The notes beneath the pieces are model-generated. The model was given only the letters and a program-made list of their open reading frames with translations, was not told where the DNA came from and made no database searches. This document shows positions 6,348 to 31,236 of a stretch of DNA of 64,000 nucleotides, piece by piece. Position 1 is the stretch's first letter; every line of letters begins with the position of its first letter. The position numbers and the translations under genes were made by a program. The stretch is from Limosilactobacillus reuteri (GTDB lineage Bacteria; Bacillota; Bacilli; Lactobacillales; Lactobacillaceae): assembly GCF_003072625.1 (NCBI RefSeq), contig NZ_CP027805.1, positions 185,001 to 249,000 on the forward strand, read 5' to 3'.

Positions 6348-8256
6348 GTGCGCCCGGCATGGGATTAGCTAGGTGGTGAAAGTCCGCTATGGGCCGTAGT
6401 AGTCGGAACCATGAGCTGAGGACAAGGGTGTCCACCGTGAGGTGGAATCTGAAGGAAGTCTAAGCCAAAGTACTGCATCGATGAACAAGAAGTAGCTATA
6501 AGGCTGAAATTAACTGGATAAGGCTGCTAGACAAGTTGAAGTCCAATACTACTCGAAATTGGTTTCAGTAAAGCTAACGATGACATGGTACGAAAGCTAA
6601 TATTCTTACCCGGGGAGATCTGGCCTACACGTTTCCGACAAGAGGAATAAGTTTAATTTCCACAGAAACAAGCGATGCAGTGATGCAGTGTTGAGTAAGC
6701 CAGAAGTCAGCCGAGGTCATAGTAGTTTGAATAATCGGATGAAGGACTGAACGACAATAACTTGTAACTTATATCGGAGGTGTAATCAGGTGCGACAATC
6801 GCAGAAAACAGAACAACAAGCTGACCGCTTGTCGAGGATAGGTTTGGAAAACCGAAAGTACACAAGGGCGCGTAGTACCGGTTATGGTGAAGGTAAAGGT
6901 ATGAGTGTCACTATCCAAGACCTGGTCTTGGATCGCAATAACCTTAATCAGGCTTATTTGCGAGTTAAGAGAAATAAAGGAGCAGCAGGCGTTGATGATA
7001 TGACAGTCAATGACCTTCTACCATATCTCAGAGAAAATAAGACGGAACTGATCGCTAGTTTGCGTGAGGGCAAGTATAAACCAGCTCCAGTCAAACGGGT
7101 AGAAATTCCGAAGCCTAATGGTGGAGTAAGAAGACTTGGAATACCAACGGTGGTGGACCGAATGGTTCAACAAGCTGTAGCCCAAATTCTTACGCCTATC
7201 TTTGAGCGTGTTTTCTCTGATAATAGCTTTGGCTTCCGTCCCCACCGTGGGGCCCATGACGCTATTGAAAAAGGAGTAGATCTTTATAATCAAGGTTATC
7301 GAAGAGTTGTCGACTTAGACCTAAAAGCCTATTTTGATAACGTTAATCATGACTTGATGATTAAGTATCTCCAACAATATATTGATGACCCATGGACACT
7401 AAGACTCATTCGTAAGTTTCTAACTAGCGGAGTCTTAGACCATGGGCTTTTCGCTAAGAGTGAAAAAGGAACCCCACAAGGAGGGCCATTGTCACCACTA
7501 CTGGCGAACATCTATCTAAATGAGTTGGACAAAGAGTTGACTAGACGTGGTCACCACTTTGTGCGCTATGCGGATGATTGTAACATCTATGTTAAAAGTC
7601 AACGAGCCGGAGAACGAGTAATGCGAAGCATTACCCAGTTTCTAGAAAAGCGCTTGAAAGTTAAAGTGAACCCAGATAAAACCAAAGTCGGTAGCCCGCT
7701 ACGGTTGAAGTTTCTTGGCTTTTCGTTGGGTATAGACCACATTGGGGCCTACGCCCGTCCAGCTAAACAATCGCAACAACGAGTAAAGAAAGCACTGAAG
7801 TTATTAACTAAACGTAATCGTGGAATATCTCTGACAAGAATGTTTGAAGAAATTCATCGAAAAATGCGTGGGTGGCTTCAGTACTACTCAATTGGGAAAC
7901 TAACTAACTTTATTCAACGCCTTGACAAGTGGTTGAGGGTCCGAATAAGGCAGTATATTTGGAAGCAATGGAAAAAGTTTAAAACTAAGGTAACTAACTT
8001 ACAGAAGTTGGGGCTGTCCCATCATGATGCATATGTCTTCGCTAGTACCCGAAAGGGCTACTGGCGAACTGCACATAGTAAGACCTTGAGCTATTCTCTA
8101 ACTAATAGAAAACTGGAACAACTCGGACTTATGAATATGTCCAAGACGCTCCAGTCAATTCAATGTGATTAAGTTGTCGAACCGCCGTATACGGAACCGT
8201 ACGTACGGTGGTGTGAGAGGTCGATAATTGAACTAATCAATTATCTCCTACTCGAT
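6348..8256 (+). mobile_element. group II intron, bacterial class C (IIC), copy 1
   Basis: The 1909-bp intron begins gtgcgcccggcatggg and ends with a domain V hairpin (accgccgtatac, ggaa loop, gtacgtacggtggt; about 8181-8214), a domain VI hairpin (cgataattgaactaatcaattatc) and the 3' end ctactcgat. An RT/maturase lacking an endonuclease domain lies in domain IV. The 5' exon is a terminator hairpin (right arm 6330-6343), the known target type of class C introns. The 3' exon starts at 8257, which is exactly the stop codon of the converging gene. The second copy at 29333-31236 is nearly identical. Confidence 0.9.
6790..8172 (+). CDS. group IIC intron reverse transcriptase/maturase
   Basis: 460 aa from a GTG behind cggaggtg. 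RT blocks are all present: PVKRVEIPKPNGG, GIPTVVDRMVQQ (RT1-2), SFGFRPHRGAHDAI (RT2a), LKAYFDNVNHDLM (first Asp), GTPQGGPLSPLLANIYL (RT4), RYADDCNIYV (catalytic YADD), LKFLGFSLG (RT7). A maturase X domain follows (about residues 330-400), and there is no HNH endonuclease, as expected for class C. It closely resembles the Geobacillus GsI-IIC enzyme as recalled. The protein splices the intron and copies it into new terminator sites. A second start (MSVTIQD, 6901) would give the core enzyme alone. Confidence 0.95.
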   Translation: MRQSQKTEQQADRLSRIGLENRKYTRARSTGYGEGKGMSVTIQDLVLDRNNLNQAYLRVKRNKGAAGVDDMTVNDLLPYLRENKTELIASLREGKYKPAPVKRVEIPKPNGGVRRLGIPTVVDRMVQQAVAQILTPIFERVFSDNSFGFRPHRGAHDAIEKGVDLYNQGYRRVVDLDLKAYFDNVNHDLMIKYLQQYIDDPWTLRLIRKFLTSGVLDHGLFAKSEKGTPQGGPLSPLLANIYLNELDKELTRRGHHFVRYADDCNIYVKSQRAGERVMRSITQFLEKRLKVKVNPDKTKVGSPLRLKFLGFSLGIDHIGAYARPAKQSQQRVKKALKLLTKRNRGISLTRMFEEIHRKMRGWLQYYSIGKLTNFIQRLDKWLRVRIRQYIWKQWKKFKTKVTNLQKLGLSHHDAYVFASTRKGYWRTAHSKTLSYSLTNRKLEQLGLMNMSKTLQSIQCD

Positions 8257-8490
8257 TTAGTCAACTAATTTTCCGATAATTGGAAGTTTTGAAACCGGTG
8301 AATACTTTTTAGCCGCTTGTTGATAGGTGACATCTGATAAATCATGGCCGAAAACATTACCGTGGATTTCTGCGCCTTTCCATTCAGGAACTTCAGAAAC
8401 ATCATAAACATTTCCACGCACTCCAATATATGCCGGACGACCTTCTTGACCATTATATTGCGCTAATTCATTGTGAGTAAATGACCGCAT
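8257..8490 (-). CDS. cytochrome b5-like heme/steroid-binding domain protein
   Basis: 77 aa, a single small cytochrome b5-like domain: FTHNELAQYNG, RPAYIGVRGNVYDVS, EWKGAEIHG, FGHDLSDV, then KLPIIGKLV. This is the layout of small bacterial cyt-b5-like proteins; the canonical HPGG heme motif is not present, but histidines in IHG and GHD could serve. It is cytosolic, with no membrane segment. A ggaggg site precedes the ATG. Its stop codon abuts the end of the group II intron, so its original terminator (6330-6343 arm) is now 1.9 kb away. Ligand unknown. Confidence 0.8.
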   Translation of the reverse strand: MRSFTHNELAQYNGQEGRPAYIGVRGNVYDVSEVPEWKGAEIHGNVFGHDLSDVTYQQAAKKYSPVSKLPIIGKLVD

Positions 8491-8636
8491 AATAATTAAT
8501 CCCTCCTATAAGAAGCTGGGAATTGACTCGGCCCCTTCCTGTATAGATGTAACAACATATGAAAATAGATGACGAGTTTATTCGTTATCCTATCATCACT
8601 ATAATACGAAAATAGTAATGACATCTGAAATTCAAT

Positions 8637-10046
8637 TTATTCAGTTGCTAAGTTTGCAGCAGGGATTTGGGCTGGGACTTTTACAAGCATTCCAGCAATA
8701 ACCGTTAGGATGGTAACGAGGAATGGGAAAAATGCCCACGGAATAAAACTTAATGGATTAATTTGTAAGGTACTAGCGATGAATACCCCAGAAACACTCC
8801 ATGGGACAATTGCGTTGACTGCGGCCCCTGCATCATTGAGAATCCGAGTTAAATCAACCCGTTTTAAGCCTAATTTATCAAATGACGGGAGAAATGATTG
8901 CCCAGGAAGAATAATTGCGAGGTAGTGTTCCCCAACAAGGAGGTTAATCCCAATACAGGTAAGAGCTGTGGAGAATGCTAATCGACCAGGCGTCTTTACA
9001 ATCCCAGTTAAGTGATTAATGATGGCGCTAATAATATTGAACTTGATCAATAAGCCACCTAAAGCAAGGGCAAAGATAATTAGGGCTAGAGAAGTAAGCA
9101 TACTAGAGATACCACCTTTAGAAAGCAATGTATCGATTGTTTTATCACCGGTATGGGAAACGTAACCAGTCATAATAGTATTGGTAATCGTAGTAAGGCT
9201 GGTTTTAGGTGCGTGAATCCAGCCAAGTACGACCGCAAAGAGTGAGCCAAGGCCAAGGGAAGGGATAGCTGGAACTTGGAAAATGGCTAACACGATTAGG
9301 AGAAGAACAGGGAGAAGAGCCCATCCTGAGATCCAGAAACCATTTTGTAAACCGGCCATCATGGCGCCTAAGCTAACATTTTTGGAGTTCAATCCTAGGA
9401 AGGTGTAAAGAATAAGACAGATTGCCCAGGCAGGAATATTGGTGGTGAGTAGGGATTTAATGTGCTTGTAAATACTGATTTCACCAACACTGGCAGCTAG
9501 ATTCGTTGTTCCTGAAAGTGGGGAAATATTCGAACCACAAAAGGCCCCTGAAACAATTACTCCCGCAGTTAAACCGGGGTTAATTTTAAGGGTTGCACCA
9601 ATGCCAATAAAGGCGATCCCTATTGTCGATACAGTTGTAAATGAGCTTCCACAAGCGATCCCGACAAGGGTACAAACGATAAAAACTGTTGGTAAGAAGA
9701 ACTTTACAGAAATAATTTCAAAACCAAAGTACATAATTGTTGGAATTGTTCCCGAAAAAATCCAGGTAGCGATTAAGACGCCGATGGAAAGAAAGATAAC
9801 GAGGGGGTCAACACCGGCTCGCAAACCATGACGCATTCCATTCATTATTGTATCCCATTTAAATCCACGAATTCGCCCGTAAACGGCGAGCAAAACAAAG
9901 GAAATAAATAATGGGGCTTGCGGTTCTTGGTGCTTAAAAATAATAGGGTAGCCTAAAATGCATAAAATAACGCCAAGAATAAGTAAACTTTCGCTAAAGC
10001 CAATCAATGGCTCAGGACTATTTTTTGATTTATTAATAGTTTTCAT
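8637..10046 (-). CDS. nhaC: NhaC-family Na+/H+ antiporter
   Basis: A 469-aa integral membrane protein with about 11-12 hydrophobic segments. It matches the NhaC family by length and by motifs: GTIPTIMYFGFE, GSSFTTVSTIGIA, GAFCGSNISPLSGTTNLAA, ILNDAGAAVNAIVPWSVSG. These antiporters exchange cytosolic Na+ for H+; some relatives are thought to carry lysine or tyrosine, so an amino-acid exchange role is not excluded. It is a single-gene unit with an aaggag site and a 240-base structured leader (10047-10290) that ends in a terminator just before the ATG, implying control by transcription attenuation. Confidence 0.88.
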   Translation of the reverse strand: MKTINKSKNSPEPLIGFSESLLILGVILCILGYPIIFKHQEPQAPLFISFVLLAVYGRIRGFKWDTIMNGMRHGLRAGVDPLVIFLSIGVLIATWIFSGTIPTIMYFGFEIISVKFFLPTVFIVCTLVGIACGSSFTTVSTIGIAFIGIGATLKINPGLTAGVIVSGAFCGSNISPLSGTTNLAASVGEISIYKHIKSLLTTNIPAWAICLILYTFLGLNSKNVSLGAMMAGLQNGFWISGWALLPVLLLIVLAIFQVPAIPSLGLGSLFAVVLGWIHAPKTSLTTITNTIMTGYVSHTGDKTIDTLLSKGGISSMLTSLALIIFALALGGLLIKFNIISAIINHLTGIVKTPGRLAFSTALTCIGINLLVGEHYLAIILPGQSFLPSFDKLGLKRVDLTRILNDAGAAVNAIVPWSVSGVFIASTLQINPLSFIPWAFFPFLVTILTVIAGMLVKVPAQIPAANLATE

Positions 10047-25403: not shown

Positions 25404-26138
25404 GTGAACGAGATAAATTTCATTTTTCGACTGCTTAAGCGGATATTTATAATAGGACTTTTAGTAGGTGGAGGATGGCTTTATTTCAATGATGCACGGG
25501 TTCAAGCAACTGCAAACCAAACTGCATGGAACGTTCGTGATCGTATTGCTAAGTTAATTGGCAAAGACGATACAAATTCAAACGATAATTCTAATCTGCA
25601 CTTAAACGATGCAAATAACAGTTCTTCTAAAAATGAACAAGAACCAACGACAGAACAACAAACGAGTACACAAACTTCGATTCCGTCTACTGGAAGATGG
25701 GCGACTAATCAAGCAACGGTTTATGTAAATACAAATAATGCTCAACTTGATGCAGCTACTAATACTGCAATTCAAAACTGGAATCAAACTGGGGCATTTA
25801 CATTCAAACCAGTAAACAATCAAAGCAAAGCGGATATTGTTGTTACGACGATGAACCGCTCTGATTCAAATGCTGCTGGGTTAACGAAGACGTCCTCGAA
25901 TTCGTTGACAAGAAGATTTATGCATGCAACGGTGTATTTAAATACATATTATTTAACTGACCCAAGTTATGGCTATAGTCAGGAACGAATTGTTAATACA
26001 GCCGAACACGAACTGGGACATGCGATTGGGCTTGATCATACCAATGCTGTTTCGGTAATGCAGCCTGCTGGATCATTCTATACGATTCAACCAGATGATG
26101 TGCAAGCGGTACAAAAACTATATGCTAATAATAAATAA
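25404..26138 (+). CDS. membrane-anchored matrixin-like zinc metalloprotease
   Basis: 244 aa: an N-terminal transmembrane anchor (about residues 10-26, FIIGLLVGGGWLYF), a Ser/Asn/Gln/Thr-rich linker (about 50-95) and an extracellular metzincin domain with HELGHAIGLDH (three zinc His and the catalytic Glu) followed by the Met-turn VMQPAG. This is the small bacterial matrixin type. The start is unclear: the GTG at 25404 overlaps the gaaagaagg ribosome site; an unusual ATA at about 25416 is better spaced but rare. Substrates are probably cell-wall or secreted proteins. Confidence 0.88.
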   Translation: MNEINFIFRLLKRIFIIGLLVGGGWLYFNDARVQATANQTAWNVRDRIAKLIGKDDTNSNDNSNLHLNDANNSSSKNEQEPTTEQQTSTQTSIPSTGRWATNQATVYVNTNNAQLDAATNTAIQNWNQTGAFTFKPVNNQSKADIVVTTMNRSDSNAAGLTKTSSNSLTRRFMHATVYLNTYYLTDPSYGYSQERIVNTAEHELGHAIGLDHTNAVSVMQPAGSFYTIQPDDVQAVQKLYANNK

Positions 26139-26186: not shown

Positions 26187-27995
26187 TTAGTCTGTCATTT
26201 TCCGCGCTTTTAGTGCCCACAGGATAGAAACAGTATCAATTATTTCCTGTAACATGGCGCCAAAAAAGGCTGGAATAATTCCGGTACTAGCAATAAGCAT
26301 TAGGATAGTACAGATTGCAATTCCGATTAGGACCGCTTGTTTTGCAATTCGCAGAGTTTCCTGAGAAATGCTAACGGCTTTTGCGACTCGCGAAAGGTCG
26401 TCTTTTAGGATGACAACTGCAGCGGATTCACTAGCAGCAGTTGATCCGTGAGCCCCCATTGCAATTCCAACATCAGCTGTCACAAGAGAAGGTGCGTCAT
26501 TTACGCCATCGCCAACCATGAAAACAGGATGTTCATCTGTTGGAATGGCTTTAAGTGCATTGATTTTATCTTGTGGAAGAAGGTCGGCTTTAACTTGTGT
26601 GATCCCTACTTGTTGAGCAACTTTATCTGCAATAACAGCTTGGTCGCCAGTTAACATTAATAGATTGGTAATACCAAGCTGTTTTAACTGGTCCATTGTT
26701 TGCTTTGCTTCAGGACGAATATGGTCGGTAAAAGTGATTGCGCCATAGTATTGCCCATCAACGCTCACATAGATAGCTGTTGCTGCTAACATCTGGTCAA
26801 GATTTTCAGGTGATACGAATTTTAATTTTCCTACTTTAACTTCCTGTCCATCAACAGTTGCTAAAATTCCTTTACCGGTTATTTCTTTAAGTTGATCAAC
26901 GGTCGATAAGGGAATGTTATACGCAGTGGCGTAAGAAAACAGTGAGCGTGCTAGGATATGTGATGATTGTTGTTCGGCGCTTGCTGCGTAATAGAGGAGC
27001 TGGGCTGAATCGATTTTTCCTGTTGGTAAGATTTTATCAACGGTCAATTGACCACTTGTAATAGTTCCTGTTTTATCAAATGCACCAGTTTTAGCAACCG
27101 CTAGTTTCTCCAATACGCTCCCTGTTTTGACAACAATTCCGTTTCGTGAAGCTCGGCTCATTCCAGAAACCATTGCCACAGGAGCTGCGAGGATTAACGG
27201 ACATGGTGAAGCGACAACGAGAACTTCCGCAAATCGTTCGGGATGCCCGGAAAGTGCCCATGCAAGTGAAGAGATAATAATAGCAATAATTGTAAATGGT
27301 ACAGCATATCGGTCAGCTAATCGAACAAAGTGGGCAGGAGTTGATTCAGCTTCCTTAACCAATTTAACGAGTTGCTGATATTGACTATCTTTTGCTAGCT
27401 TGGTGACTTGTAAAGTAGTGGCATTATCACCATTAACTGATCCGGACATCACTTCGTCACCAGCTGTTTTTGAAACTGGCCGTGATTCACCAGTTAATGA
27501 CGATTCGTCGAACAATCCCTCACCATTTTTAATAATTCCATCGACTGGTACTAATTCTCCAGGCTTAACGATAAGCTGGTCGCCAACTTTGACATCGTTA
27601 ACTGGGATATCGCTGGTTTTGCCATTGGTGATTAAATGCGCCGTTTGTGGTGAATTATTAAGTAATGCTTTTAATTCGGTGCTTGCTTTTTTGGCAGCAT
27701 AATCTTCTAAGGCATCTCCTCCGGTTAACATTACAAGAATAACCATCGCTGCCCAATATTCGCTAACGGCTAGCGTTGCGACGACAGCCATAATAGCAAG
27801 CAGATCAACGCCATATTTACCACTACGGATAGTTTTTATCATGCCAATAAACATTGAAAAAGCAACAATTACTCCAACGATAGTAACCAAGATTTGTGCG
27901 AAAAGGTGTAAATGGAATCCAAATTGGAGTACAACTGCGATTGCTGCGATTACTAAGATGATAATTAATTTTTGCTTATTAGATAGTTTTTTCAT
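26187..27995 (-). CDS. heavy-metal P1B-type ATPase, SPC class
   Basis: 602 aa. P-type ATPase signatures: TGES (SLTGESRPV), the ion-binding VASPCPLILAAP in the transmembrane region, the phosphorylation site DKTGTIT, MLTGD, and the hinge MVGDGVNDAPSL. The SPC motif in place of CPC is typical of P1B-4-like exporters of Co2+, Zn2+, Cd2+ or Fe2+. There is no N-terminal HMA metal-binding domain, and the N-terminus goes straight into membrane helices. No ArsR or MerR regulator is nearby. Divergent from the DeoB-like gene. Exact metal unknown. Confidence 0.9.
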   Translation of the reverse strand: MKKLSNKQKLIIILVIAAIAVVLQFGFHLHLFAQILVTIVGVIVAFSMFIGMIKTIRSGKYGVDLLAIMAVVATLAVSEYWAAMVILVMLTGGDALEDYAAKKASTELKALLNNSPQTAHLITNGKTSDIPVNDVKVGDQLIVKPGELVPVDGIIKNGEGLFDESSLTGESRPVSKTAGDEVMSGSVNGDNATTLQVTKLAKDSQYQQLVKLVKEAESTPAHFVRLADRYAVPFTIIAIIISSLAWALSGHPERFAEVLVVASPCPLILAAPVAMVSGMSRASRNGIVVKTGSVLEKLAVAKTGAFDKTGTITSGQLTVDKILPTGKIDSAQLLYYAASAEQQSSHILARSLFSYATAYNIPLSTVDQLKEITGKGILATVDGQEVKVGKLKFVSPENLDQMLAATAIYVSVDGQYYGAITFTDHIRPEAKQTMDQLKQLGITNLLMLTGDQAVIADKVAQQVGITQVKADLLPQDKINALKAIPTDEHPVFMVGDGVNDAPSLVTADVGIAMGAHGSTAASESAAVVILKDDLSRVAKAVSISQETLRIAKQAVLIGIAICTILMLIASTGIIPAFFGAMLQEIIDTVSILWALKARKMTD

Positions 27996-28052
27996 AATAC
28001 CCCCGCTTAGGTCTAATACTTTCTACACTTTAATTATAGAGTTTTTGTGCAG

Positions 28053-28061
28053 TGATATAAT
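28053..28061 (+). promoter_or_regulatory. extended -10 promoter element
   Basis: tgatataat (TG, one base, TATAAT) lies 39 bases before the DeoB-like ATG. The -35 region is weak, as often with extended -10 promoters. Confidence 0.6.
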
Positions 28062-28099
28062 AAAAAGTTAGAAATATTAAGGAGAACTGGTGAAAAATA

Positions 28100-29290
28100 A
28101 TGCAAAATGGACAATCTTATCAACGAATTTTTGTATTGATAATTGATTCATTAGGAATTGGAGCAACGGCTGACGCAAATCGTTTTGAGAGTCTAGGGGC
28201 TGATACGCTAGGGCATCTTGGGGAACACTTTCGGATGCGGTTGCAATTGCCGACTTTTCAGAAACTAGGTCTAGGAAACCTTCACCCAATTATGGGGATG
28301 CCTTCGCTTGCAAATCCTCACGCCGCTTATGGGCAAATAAGTTCAATCTCAACGGGCCTGAGTGATCGCGAGAGCCAGTGGGAGATGATGGGCTTAGCAA
28401 CGTCCACTGAACCTGACATTTTTATTGATGGTGTGCCGTTGGAAATAGCGACTAATTTTGCGAACAAAGCCATGCGCCCAGTTTTAAGTAATTCGTTACT
28501 GAATATCCAGACGGCATTGAAGGATTACGGACTTGAACAATTGGCAACAGGTGATCTGCTATTGGCGACGGCTAGTTCTTCGAGTGTTTGGTTAATTGCG
28601 CATGAACATACTATTTCGGTTGCCGAATTAAAAGAAGATTGTCAGATTTTGCGAACAATGCTTGATAACTCTCCGTATACTATTGAAAATGTAAATGGCC
28701 TTCTTTTTAGTGGCAACCGGCCGACTAATTTTTATCCCCAAGAACTTTATAAGTTTCCTTTAGCTCCACCAAGTCCAACAGTTATTGATTGTCTCCTGAA
28801 AGAAGGCTATGCGGTAAAATTAATCGGAAAAAGTACCCAGTTCTTTGATTTAGCTCGTAAAGAAATAATTGGGAATAATAAAGAGAGTTTTGTTCAGCTA
28901 CAAGAGCTAATAGACAAAAAATTTACAGGTGTTTGTATAGCAGAAGTAGGAGAGATGGAGCAATTTGGTAAAGCGCGTAATCCTGAAGGCTTTGGAACGG
29001 AACTAATGCGGATTGATCACGAACTTACAAAAGTCATCGATAAACTACAAGATGATGATTTACTGATTGTGACGGGGAACCTTGGGAATGATCCTACTTA
29101 TCCTGGTGAAAAACATACGCGTGAATACGTACCGTTACTTGTAACATCTCCGCATCTTAAGCAAAATATTTCTCTTGGTGGCAAAAGTTTTAGCGATATT
29201 GGGGCAACAATTCTTGATAATTATGATTTAGGAGATAAGTTGCCAGTTGGTAATAGTTTTTTAAGAGAATTATTTTCTGCATATCAATAA
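28100..29290 (+). CDS. deoB: phosphopentomutase-like protein, probable pseudoenzyme
   Basis: 396 aa, the exact length of DeoB, and alignable from end to end with phosphopentomutases (from memory of the Bacillus enzyme). Kept: IDSLGIG (first metal Asp), GADTLGHL, WEMMGL, HTREYVPLL (last metal His), FSDIGATILDN. Lost: the phosphorylated Thr (KDTMTGHWE is here LSDRESQWE, Thr to Asp), the ribose-binding Asp (SADS to SSSS), two metal ligands in VDFDALFGHRRD (here VGEMEQFGKARN) and both in TADHGND (here TGNLGND). The fold is conserved while almost all chemistry is gone, so it probably binds a ligand or protein instead. It has an extended -10 promoter and its own terminator and is not decayed. Confidence 0.85.
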   Translation: MQNGQSYQRIFVLIIDSLGIGATADANRFESLGADTLGHLGEHFRMRLQLPTFQKLGLGNLHPIMGMPSLANPHAAYGQISSISTGLSDRESQWEMMGLATSTEPDIFIDGVPLEIATNFANKAMRPVLSNSLLNIQTALKDYGLEQLATGDLLLATASSSSVWLIAHEHTISVAELKEDCQILRTMLDNSPYTIENVNGLLFSGNRPTNFYPQELYKFPLAPPSPTVIDCLLKEGYAVKLIGKSTQFFDLARKEIIGNNKESFVQLQELIDKKFTGVCIAEVGEMEQFGKARNPEGFGTELMRIDHELTKVIDKLQDDDLLIVTGNLGNDPTYPGEKHTREYVPLLVTSPHLKQNISLGGKSFSDIGATILDNYDLGDKLPVGNSFLRELFSAYQ

Positions 29291-29329
29291 AAGAGGATGG
29301 AAAAATTCTGATTTTCCATCCTCTTTTAT
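29288..29329. terminator. terminator targeted by group IIC intron copy 2
   Basis: aaaagaggatgg(aaaa) and (tttt)ccatcctctttt form a 16-bp stem with T and A tails on the two strands, serving the DeoB-like gene and the converging 43-aa gene at 31239. The intron begins three bases after it. Confidence 0.92.
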
Positions 29330-29332
29330 CTA

Positions 29333-31236
29333 GTGCGCCCGGCATGGGTATTAGCTAGGTGGTGAAAGTCCGCTATGGGCCGTAGTAGTCGGAACCATGA
29401 GCTGAGGACAAGGGTGTCCACCGTGAGGTGGAATCTGAAGGAAGTCTAAGGCAAAGTACAGCATCGATGAACAAGAAGTAGCTATAAGGCTGAAATTAAC
29501 TGGATAAGGCTGCTAGACAAGTTGAAGTCCAATACTACTCGAAATTGGTCTCAGTAAAGCTAACGATGACATGGTACGAAAGCTAATATTCTTACCCGGG
29601 GAGATCTGGCCTACACGTTTCCGACAAGAGGAATAAGTTTAATTTCCACAGAAACGAGCGGTGCAGTGATGCAGTGTTGAGTAAGCCAGAAGTCAGCCGA
29701 GGTCATAGTAGTTTGAATAATCGGATGAAGGACTGAACGACAATAACTTGTAACTTATATCGGAGGTGTAATCAGGTGCGACAATCGCAGAAAACAGAAC
29801 AACAAGCTGACCGCTTGTCGAGGATAGGTTTGGAAAACCGAAAGTACACAAGGGCGCGTAGTACCGGTTATGGTAAAGGTATGAGTGTCACTATCCAAGA
29901 CCTGGTCTTGGATCGCAATAACCTTAATCAGGCTTATTTGCGAGTTAAGAGAAATAAAGGAGCAGCAGGCGTTGACGATATGACAGTCAATAACTTTCTG
30001 CCATATCTCAGAGAAAATAAGACGGAACTGATCGCTAGTTTGCGTGAGGGCAAGTATAAACCAGCTCCAGTCAAACGGGTAGAAATTCCGAAGCCTAATG
30101 GTGGAGTAAGAAGACTTGGAATACCAACGGTGGTGGACCGAATGGTTCAACAAGTTGTAGCCCAAATTCTTATGCCTATCTTTGAGCGTGTTTTCTCTGA
30201 TAATAGCTTTGGCTTCCGTCCCCACCGTGGGGCCCATGACGCTATTTCAAAAGTAGTAGATCTTTATAATCAAGGTTATCGAAGAGTTGTCGACTTAGAC
30301 CTAAAAGCCTATTTTGATAACGTTAATCATGACTTGATGATTAAGTATCTCCAACAATATATTGATGACCCATGGACACTAAGACTCATTCGTAAGTTTC
30401 TAACTAGCGGAGTCTTAGACCATGGGCTTTTCGCTAAGAGTGAAAAAGGAACCCCACAAGGAGGGCCATTGTCACCACTACTGGCGAACATCTATCTAAA
30501 TGAGTTGGACAAAGAGTTGACTAGACGTGGTCATCACTTTGTGCGCTATGCGGATGATTGTAACATCTATGTTAAAAGTCAACGAGCCGGAGAACGAGTA
30601 ATGCGAAGCATTACCCAGTTTCTAGAAAAGCGCTTGAAAGTTAAAGTGAACCCAGATAAAACCAAAGTCGGTAGCCCGCTACGGTTGAAGTTTCTTGGCT
30701 TTTCGTTGGGTGTAGACCACAATGGGGCCTACGCCCGTCCAGCTAAACAATCGCAACAACGAGTAAAGAAAGCACTGAAGTTATTAACTAAACGTAATCG
30801 TGGAATATCTCTGACAAGAATGTTTGAAGAAATTCATCGAAAAATGCGTGGGTGGCTTCAGTACTACTCAATTGAGAAACTAACTAACTTTATTCAACGC
30901 CTTGACAAGTGGTTGAGGGTCCGAATAAGGCAGTATATTTGGAAGCAATGGAAAAAGTTTAAAACTAAGGTAACTAACTTACAGAAGTTGGGGCTGTCCC
31001 AGCATGATGCATATGTCTTCGCTAGTACCCGAAAGGGCTACTGGCGAACTGCACATAGTAAGACCTTGAGCTATTCTCTAACTAATAGAAAACTGGAACA
31101 ACTCGGACTTATGAATATGTCCAAGACGCTCCAGTCAATTCAATGTGATTAAGTTGTCGAACCGCCGTATACGGAACCGTACGTACGGTGGTGTGAGAGG
31201 TCGATAATTGAACTAATCAATTATCTCCTACTCGAT
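29333..31236 (+). mobile_element. group II intron, bacterial class C (IIC), copy 2
   Basis: 1904 bp, from gtgcgcccggcatggg to ctactcgat, nearly identical to copy 1. The visible differences are an extra T after gcatggg, a 6-base deletion at 29873 and scattered substitutions. It is directly downstream of a terminator hairpin and three bases from the stop codon of a converging minus-strand gene, the same architecture as copy 1. Domain V lies at about 31161-31194. The RT frame is intact. Confidence 0.92.
29776..31152 (+). CDS. group IIC intron reverse transcriptase/maturase (copy 2)
   Basis: 458 aa from a GTG behind cggaggtg. It differs from copy 1 by a 2-residue deletion (GEGKGM to GKGM) and about a dozen substitutions, mostly outside the RT motifs (NFL for DLL, MPI for TPI, ISKVVD for IEKGVD, and others). 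RYADDC, GTPQGGPLSP and the maturase region are intact, and there is no endonuclease domain. Either copy could support mobility of both. Confidence 0.95.
   Translation: MRQSQKTEQQADRLSRIGLENRKYTRARSTGYGKGMSVTIQDLVLDRNNLNQAYLRVKRNKGAAGVDDMTVNNFLPYLRENKTELIASLREGKYKPAPVKRVEIPKPNGGVRRLGIPTVVDRMVQQVVAQILMPIFERVFSDNSFGFRPHRGAHDAISKVVDLYNQGYRRVVDLDLKAYFDNVNHDLMIKYLQQYIDDPWTLRLIRKFLTSGVLDHGLFAKSEKGTPQGGPLSPLLANIYLNELDKELTRRGHHFVRYADDCNIYVKSQRAGERVMRSITQFLEKRLKVKVNPDKTKVGSPLRLKFLGFSLGVDHNGAYARPAKQSQQRVKKALKLLTKRNRGISLTRMFEEIHRKMRGWLQYYSIEKLTNFIQRLDKWLRVRIRQYIWKQWKKFKTKVTNLQKLGLSQHDAYVFASTRKGYWRTAHSKTLSYSLTNRKLEQLGLMNMSKTLQSIQCD

Follow-up and report, generated by a model that had tools for sequence, protein, structure and literature searches.

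How does a gene for a phosphopentomutase-like protein persist in Limosilactobacillus reuteri when its product appears to lack the residues needed for catalysis? The window analysed here, a stretch of 64,000 nucleotides, contains an open reading frame with an ATG start at 28100-29290 on the forward strand. The original prediction described its product as a full-length homologue of phosphopentomutase (DeoB) that has lost its catalytic residues, provided with its own promoter and terminator and apparently selected rather than decaying, and it proposed that the protein might sense nucleosides or pentose phosphates, or regulate the real DeoB.

Identity, fold and active site of the gene product

A sequence search matched residues 5-391 to the phosphopentomutase of Bacillus cereus (E 2e-69), and the protein scores 85.6 bits against the Metalloenzyme superfamily (PF01676). 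An AlphaFold2 model built from eight aligned sequences (pLDDT 72.7, pTM 0.73) is least confident at residues 18-39, 82-91, 286-293 and 329-342, which are mostly former active-site loops. In a Foldseek search with this model, ranks 1 to 16 were all phosphopentomutases (TM 0.70-0.75); the B. cereus chains aligned over the full length (TM 0.72-0.75, 34% identity in the fold match), consistent with a predicted core plus cap fold. The protein is thus like DeoB in length and fold, but its phospho-acceptor, its ribose and phosphate contacts and most of its metal ligands are replaced, and it falls below the cut-offs of both DeoB families, by only 0.1 bit for NF003766/PRK05362 (255.9 against 256 bits) and by more for TIGR01696 (250 against 341.2 bits). 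Membership of the DeoB-related phosphopentomutase-like family NF009049/PRK12383, which belongs to the same superfamily and presumably includes Escherichia coli YhfW, was rejected: the protein reaches 126.2 bits against a cut-off of 254, whereas a protein from another Lactobacillaceae genome (L072, genus g4) scores 585. The features of the coding region are as follows.

28100-29290, forward strand: predicted pseudo-phosphopentomutase gene encoding 396 aa, the product having a full-length DeoB fold that includes the cap domain
28226-28252, forward strand: HFRxRLQLP segment, residues 43-51, common to the 13 unbroken dead copies of Limosilactobacillus
28349-28390, forward strand: former phospho-acceptor loop, residues 84-97, STGLSDRESQWEMM, compared with SAGKDSMDGHWEMM in the intact DeoB of the same genome
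28577-28579, forward strand: residue S160, aligned as the replacement of D156
28946-28984, forward strand: former metal-ligand segment, residues 283-295 (VDFD...GHRRD in DeoB), with D286 replaced by E and H291 by K
29072-29125, forward strand: former TADHGND...HTRE segment, residues 325-342, with D327 replaced by N, H328 by L, and H339 kept

Residues were mapped in B. cereus numbering, with the roles of the active-site residues (phospho-acceptor, metal ligands, ribose and phosphate contacts) taken as generally assumed for this enzyme: D13, D286, H291, D327, H328 and H339 as the six metal ligands, and D156, R193, R208 and K240 as substrate contacts, with D156 touching the ribose. Around the phospho-acceptor, the protein carries K83L, D84S, T85D, G88S and H89Q; elsewhere it carries D156S, R193N, H291K, D327N and H328L, and R208 is lost (a gap or P, depending on the alignment), while D13, K240, H339 and R341 are kept. 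Asp at the phospho-threonine position and Ser at that of the ribose-binding Asp are therefore as originally proposed, and so are three of the four proposed metal-ligand replacements, namely K, N and L at positions 291, 327 and 328. The fourth, Met at position 286, is not: that residue aligns with Glu, which leaves three of the six metal ligands lost and one more altered from D to E. Since this position is E in six and D in two of the eight unbroken proteins of the clade formed with the closest orthologues (the window clade), D286 is better regarded as conservatively replaced than as lost. As a control, 24 canonical DeoBs were compared (20 from other genera, chosen as strong PF01676 matches, two from genus g13 and two from other Bacillota); 23 keep all 18 positions printed, with T or S at position 85, and the exception carries a single W90F change. 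The B. cereus alignment covers almost the whole protein and is interrupted by small gaps only, and neither sequence nor fold alignment places the catalytic residues elsewhere in the protein, which rejects their relocation.

The losses are shared across the clade. In all eight proteins the phospho-acceptor of the K-D-T/S-x-x-GHWE motif is gone (D in seven, N in one), H291 is replaced by K or Q and D327 by N, and the contacts D156, R193 and R208 are lost; position 328 is F in five and L, H or Y in one each, with L peculiar to the window protein. As judged from its sequence, then, the gene encodes a phosphopentomutase homologue without catalytic residues, that is, a pseudo-phosphopentomutase, in line with the original prediction on both sequence and fold comparison. 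Could it instead be a new enzyme, with the Asp at the old Thr position as nucleophile or with a new metal site? D13 and H339 are retained in all eight proteins and K240 and the Asp in seven each, and a new site is conceivable because the model is least confident in the former active-site loops. The replacement of H291 and D327, the loss of D156, R193 and R208 throughout, and the orthologue with N at the Thr position all speak against such neofunctionalization, which we consider very unlikely. The same losses weaken the proposal of a pentose-phosphate sensor that uses the old pocket: with metal and substrate contacts gone, binding of another protein is likelier than ligand sensing through that pocket.

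Dead and intact copies in Limosilactobacillus

A degenerate, dead deoB was found in 14 of the 50 Limosilactobacillus genomes searched and in none of the other 36, some of which are incomplete. Nine genomes, each from a different species, carry orthologues of at least 57% identity (the window genome, G002, G004, G034, G035, G036, G037, G038 and G049). The copy is intact in eight of these nine species, down to 56-57% identity, and in G037 a tandem duplication disrupts it. Another five genomes (G021, G028, G029, G030 and G031) have degenerate copies that are more diverged and encode about 350-380 aa. Orthologues with intact catalytic residues, which would have spoken against the original reading, were not found: all 14 copies are degenerate, one of them also broken, and the other matches in the 50-genome search keep the catalytic set where their sequence is complete. 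Seven residues (H43, R45, R47, Q49, H62, E91 and D189) are fixed in all 13 unbroken copies, and each occurs in fewer than 20% of 34 canonical DeoBs; we count the 13 copies as about five separate lines because near-identical species are included.

The window genome holds two PF01676 proteins, the dead copy and, about 74 kb away, an intact DeoB encoded between deoC and pdp, so that the dead copy is a paralogue alongside the real deoB; the labels deoC, pdp, rsmG, parA and parB used here are presumptive, as recognized from the sequences rather than by family search. That second, canonical deoB had been named as a point to check, and each of the 14 genomes with a dead copy proved to contain an intact deoB as well. 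This co-occurrence, together with the retained fold and length, is what one would expect if the dead protein regulated the cell's intact DeoB or co-oligomerized with it, and inside Limosilactobacillus such a role is possible; the distance of about 74 kb between the genes argues against it, as does the distribution of the wider lineage described below.

Several observations on the canonical genes were made along the way. L058 and L059, recovered with the window alignment, turned out to be canonical DeoBs. A separate DeoB branch with intact residues comprises L033, L034, L039, L047 and L019 (from G036, G004, G007, G049 and G045, respectively), and the start of L047 is odd. The canonical DeoB of G009 is in two pieces (L051, G009:C3), and a second canonical deoB copy of G029 carries an in-frame TAG (L257, G029:C1:292600-294900). 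In L061 (G035:C1:650000-669900) the genes run head to tail on nearly one strand with scarcely any intergenic sequence, so that the record resembles joined coding sequences more than a natural chromosome.

Among 15 pairs from six species, the window gene has a dN/dS of 0.147 (mean dN 0.052, mean dS 0.352), and on this codon-level comparison it is under purifying selection among close relatives of L. reuteri. Of the nine real genes compared at the locus it nevertheless evolves fastest: eight flanking gene families gave 0.025-0.089 in a comparison that left out families with more than one member per locus, the P-type ATPase among them. Canonical deoB gave 0.028 (six genomes, five shared with the window-gene set), about one fifth of the window-gene value, and two short reading frames overlying other genes gave 0.149 and 1.49. 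The faster evolution, the patchy presence in the genus and the tandem-duplication break in G037 are compatible with a decaying duplicate caught before its loss. A decayed pseudogene is opposed by the dN/dS value, the wide conservation with unbroken copies in eight of nine window-clade species, and the newly fixed, invariant residues such as those of the HFRxRLQLP segment, and we regard such decay as highly improbable. The proposal that the gene is selected rather than decaying is thus upheld, and it is very probable that the product is catalytically dead while its gene is under selection.

The flanks of the gene contain the following features.

26187-27995, reverse strand: P-type ATPase gene (PF00122), divergent and syntenic neighbour, from Pfam and neighbourhood comparison
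27996-28099, no strand assigned: 104-bp intergenic region between this gene and the divergent P-type ATPase gene, with a TATAAT on the forward strand
29289-29327, forward strand: 16-bp inverted repeat with A and T ends, overlapping the stop codon and terminator-like in sequence

For the proposed own promoter the evidence is mixed: a consensus promoter scan of the upstream region found no site above chance, but the intergenic TATAAT is retained in five of the seven species aligned (of nine). It is similarly divided for a terminator, in that the inverted repeat is present with small changes in the same five species but a strict terminator scan reported none at this gene; in our view the scan misses it because the T run presumably lies inside the stem. 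No cre site with two or fewer mismatches precedes the gene.

The divergent ATPase gene raises the further possibility that the two proteins work together, for example in metal homeostasis. It adjoins the dead deoB in the nine window-clade loci read, where in the window the two share the 104-bp intergenic region, and in G030 and G031; it lies about 5 kb off in G028 and G029. The G021 copy (L065) adjoins the gene pair that separates copy and ATPase in G028 and G029, but the ATPase is absent from the stretch read around it. Other genes around the window locus are as syntenic as the ATPase, in L055 the ATPase gene (8338-9694) is split over two frames next to an unbroken dead DeoB, and the nupC-linked relatives described below have different neighbours, all of which makes an ATPase partner hardly probable.

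Also syntenic in relatives is a gene for a Matrixin-like metallopeptidase (PF00413) at 25404-26138 of the window. Two near-identical reading frames at 29776-31152 and 6790-8172 resemble, from their sequence, reverse transcriptases of group II introns; the first lies just after the window gene, and a related frame follows the broken G037 copy (L062, 11247-12629).

A cap-less relative encoded upstream of nupC

A PF01676 search of 349 Lactobacillaceae genomes, with weak matches inspected in 16, revealed proteins of about 275 aa without the cap domain. A profile built from ten of them and run on the 349 genomes gave one contiguous match of 159-422 bits in each of at least 73 genomes, from 8 of 40 genera (g13, g15, g20, g23, g26, g32, g34 and g36); the other matches listed, canonical DeoBs included, reach at most 115 bits and are mostly in two pieces. 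Among 395 genomes sampled from the order, in which the share outside this family was not given, strong matches occurred in 16, all of them Lactobacillaceae. Residues 96-211 of the B. cereus enzyme are missing in all 72 cap-less proteins read. D13 is replaced by A in 61 of the 72, D327 by S or T in 68, and D286 and H339 in most; H291 is variable, H328 is still H in 19, and E91 is retained in all 72. Four genera (49 pairs) gave a dN/dS of 0.054-0.105, and a fifth, represented by one pair, gave 0.289; individual pairs reach 0.43.

The neighbours of the cap-less gene were read at 72 loci, with G332 left out. The nearest recognized gene downstream on the same strand encodes a nupC-type transporter in 70 of them, at distances from a 25 bp overlap to about 300 bp; the two exceptions have a nucleoside hydrolase gene (G140) or rsmG (G082) next, and nupC is in two pieces in G330. 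A purine-permease homologue (PF00860) then follows in 48 of the 72 loci and a nucleoside-hydrolase homologue (PF01156) in 16, with many stretches too short to reveal more. Pfam confirmed the two NupC transporters tested (PF07662/PF01773), one purine permease and one nucleoside hydrolase. NupC occurs in 272 of the 349 genomes. All but one of the cap-less carriers have it (72 of 73, the exception being G082), but it stands without a cap-less partner in 200 of the 272. At 26 of the 72 loci a cre-like site is present in the 200 bp upstream, compared with 7.0 expected from mononucleotide shuffles. None of these counts are independent, because the genomes are related. In genus g13, a cre-like site near ATGAAAGCGCAATCAT recurs before the cap-less gene and nupC (for example in L093, L143 and L159), which suggests catabolite control.

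The window copy itself stands alone, adjoins the P-type ATPase gene and is not located directly upstream of nupC. Its genome keeps a region with nupC, nucleoside hydrolase, rsmG and par genes, in which no DeoB relative precedes nupC. A tblastn match there (E 0.037) that might have been a relic of the cap-less gene was not upheld by a profile search, and the profile search found no relic before 30 of the 42 Limosilactobacillus nupC loci (best E 0.34), four of which have less than 1.1 kb upstream. The originally proposed link to nucleosides is hence found in the lineage, through its nupC operons, but not at the window locus.

Are the full-length and cap-less dead proteins related? A tree was computed from the core domain, with the catalytic columns and the cap removed, from 24 of the 72 cap-less proteins (at most four per genus) and 9 of the 35 canonical proteins of Limosilactobacillus; both pieces of the G037 copy were left out (the shorter one also from a first tree), and both G009 pieces were left out of all trees. 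One branch with support of 100/96 separates 37 dead rows (24 cap-less, eight of the window clade and five other Limosilactobacillus copies) from the 36 others, although the branches are long. The window clade joins the five other Limosilactobacillus copies with support of 92/72. The outgroup (B. cereus and two other Bacillota) does not fall on one side of a single branch, as one row is misplaced, though each of its three members is placed with the canonical proteins. In AU tests, grouping the window clade with the canonical DeoB of its own genus was rejected (p-AU 0.0035), and with it a recent duplication from the deoB of that genus; a tree placing the dead Limosilactobacillus copies with canonical Lactobacillaceae DeoB and not with the cap-less form was weakly rejected (p-AU 0.040). 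The window protein and the cap-less form are therefore probably one lineage; their common ancestry is likely rather than proven, because long branches may attract dead lineages to each other.

Two degenerate full-length DeoBs of g13, L074 and L086 (in L103 and L104, loci that share some neighbours), nest within canonical DeoB in the tree and apparently represent a separate, independent loss of active-site residues. Plasmid spread was also considered and set aside: the best of 69 plasmid matches to the window protein has 37.1% identity and is annotated as phosphopentomutase, and no plasmid record covered 80% of the one cap-less query protein used.

By our count, 39 of the 73 cap-less carriers have among their matches none that might represent an intact deoB. 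They comprise every carrier in g23 (16) and in g26 (10), six of g15, three of g13, two of g32 and one each of g34 and g36. The listed completeness of these genomes is 93% or higher in every case but one (86%), and one of those from g13 (G368) holds a degenerate full-length protein instead. Across the lineage the dead protein therefore cannot depend on DeoB, and regulating DeoB cannot be its general role; as an account of the dead protein we rate it unlikely.

A possible role in nucleoside uptake

Because its relatives sit upstream of nupC, nucleoside uptake or salvage is the best guess for the function of the lineage. Such a role is reasonably likely for the nupC-linked branch. For the window protein it is a tentative assignment, carried over by ancestry only, since the gene is unlinked to nupC and no relic of the cap-less gene was recognized before the 30 Limosilactobacillus nupC loci searched.

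Among the matches listed, deoB and nupC lie within about 4 kb of each other on one strand in several genera (for example in G164, G197, G091, G116 and G226). The published description of the Lactobacillus sakei deo operon gives the order deoC-deoB-deoD-lsa0798-lsa0799-deoR-pdp, with a pyrimidine nucleoside symporter, a putative purine transporter and a putative cre site in front (PMC3146418). On that description, deoB is found with nucleoside transporters there as in the cap-less operons, but the L. sakei DeoB is annotated as an enzyme whereas the DeoB relative of the cap-less operons is dead and without a cap. This operon and the neighbouring deoB and nupC coordinates make a deo-type operon a plausible origin of the lineage.

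We propose that a duplicated deoB of such an operon gave rise to the lineage, which would then have lost catalysis. One branch, as the tree suggests, probably lost the cap as well as the catalytic residues and became the gene immediately preceding nupC in an operon for nucleoside uptake. The dead protein may have been retained as a partner without catalytic activity, one that adjusts nucleoside uptake or salvage by binding another protein; in the nupC-linked branch its partner would most simply be the NupC transporter or a salvage enzyme, and the Limosilactobacillus protein could act in trans through its conserved HFRxRLQLP segment and through the loop of the former active site, now remodelled. 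That a non-catalytic phosphopentomutase lineage serves nucleoside uptake or salvage through protein binding is the explanation we favour, at somewhat less than an even chance. Its leading mechanism, direct control of NupC or a salvage enzyme through binding, is itself rather doubtful, and operon linkage by itself is no proof of binding. The most specific form of the proposal, in which regulatory pseudoenzymes control nucleoside uptake in Lactobacillaceae, the cap-less form gating NupC or its salvage partners by binding and the full-length form of the L. reuteri group acting in trans, is more doubtful still.

A regulatory role for a domain of this kind has a distant parallel. YejM/PbgA, a membrane protein of the alkaline phosphatase superfamily, regulates LPS synthesis, and has reportedly been described in one paper as a metalloenzyme (PMC7576196). 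Its periplasmic domain gave a weak, partial fold match to the window model in Foldseek (TM 0.28-0.29); it belongs to a different family, and the likeness is one of a possible working mode, not of kinship. Among the papers listed from the open-licence PMC literature, no title or abstract opening describes dead phosphopentomutases of this kind.

As the window protein lies only 0.1 bit below one DeoB cut-off, automatic annotation is likely to label it phosphopentomutase, and metabolic models may therefore credit it with the wrong activity. Apparent stages of the loss are still present among living species: a full-length protein with a partly lost site in the window clade, full-length or shortened proteins with other losses (L042-L046), and the cap-less form with its sites lost. 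If the nupC linkage reflects function, the lineage offers a testable case of an enzyme turned transporter partner. A metabolic enzyme would then have become the dedicated partner of a transporter that feeds its own old pathway, and in some genera the dead partner would persist where the active enzyme is missing.
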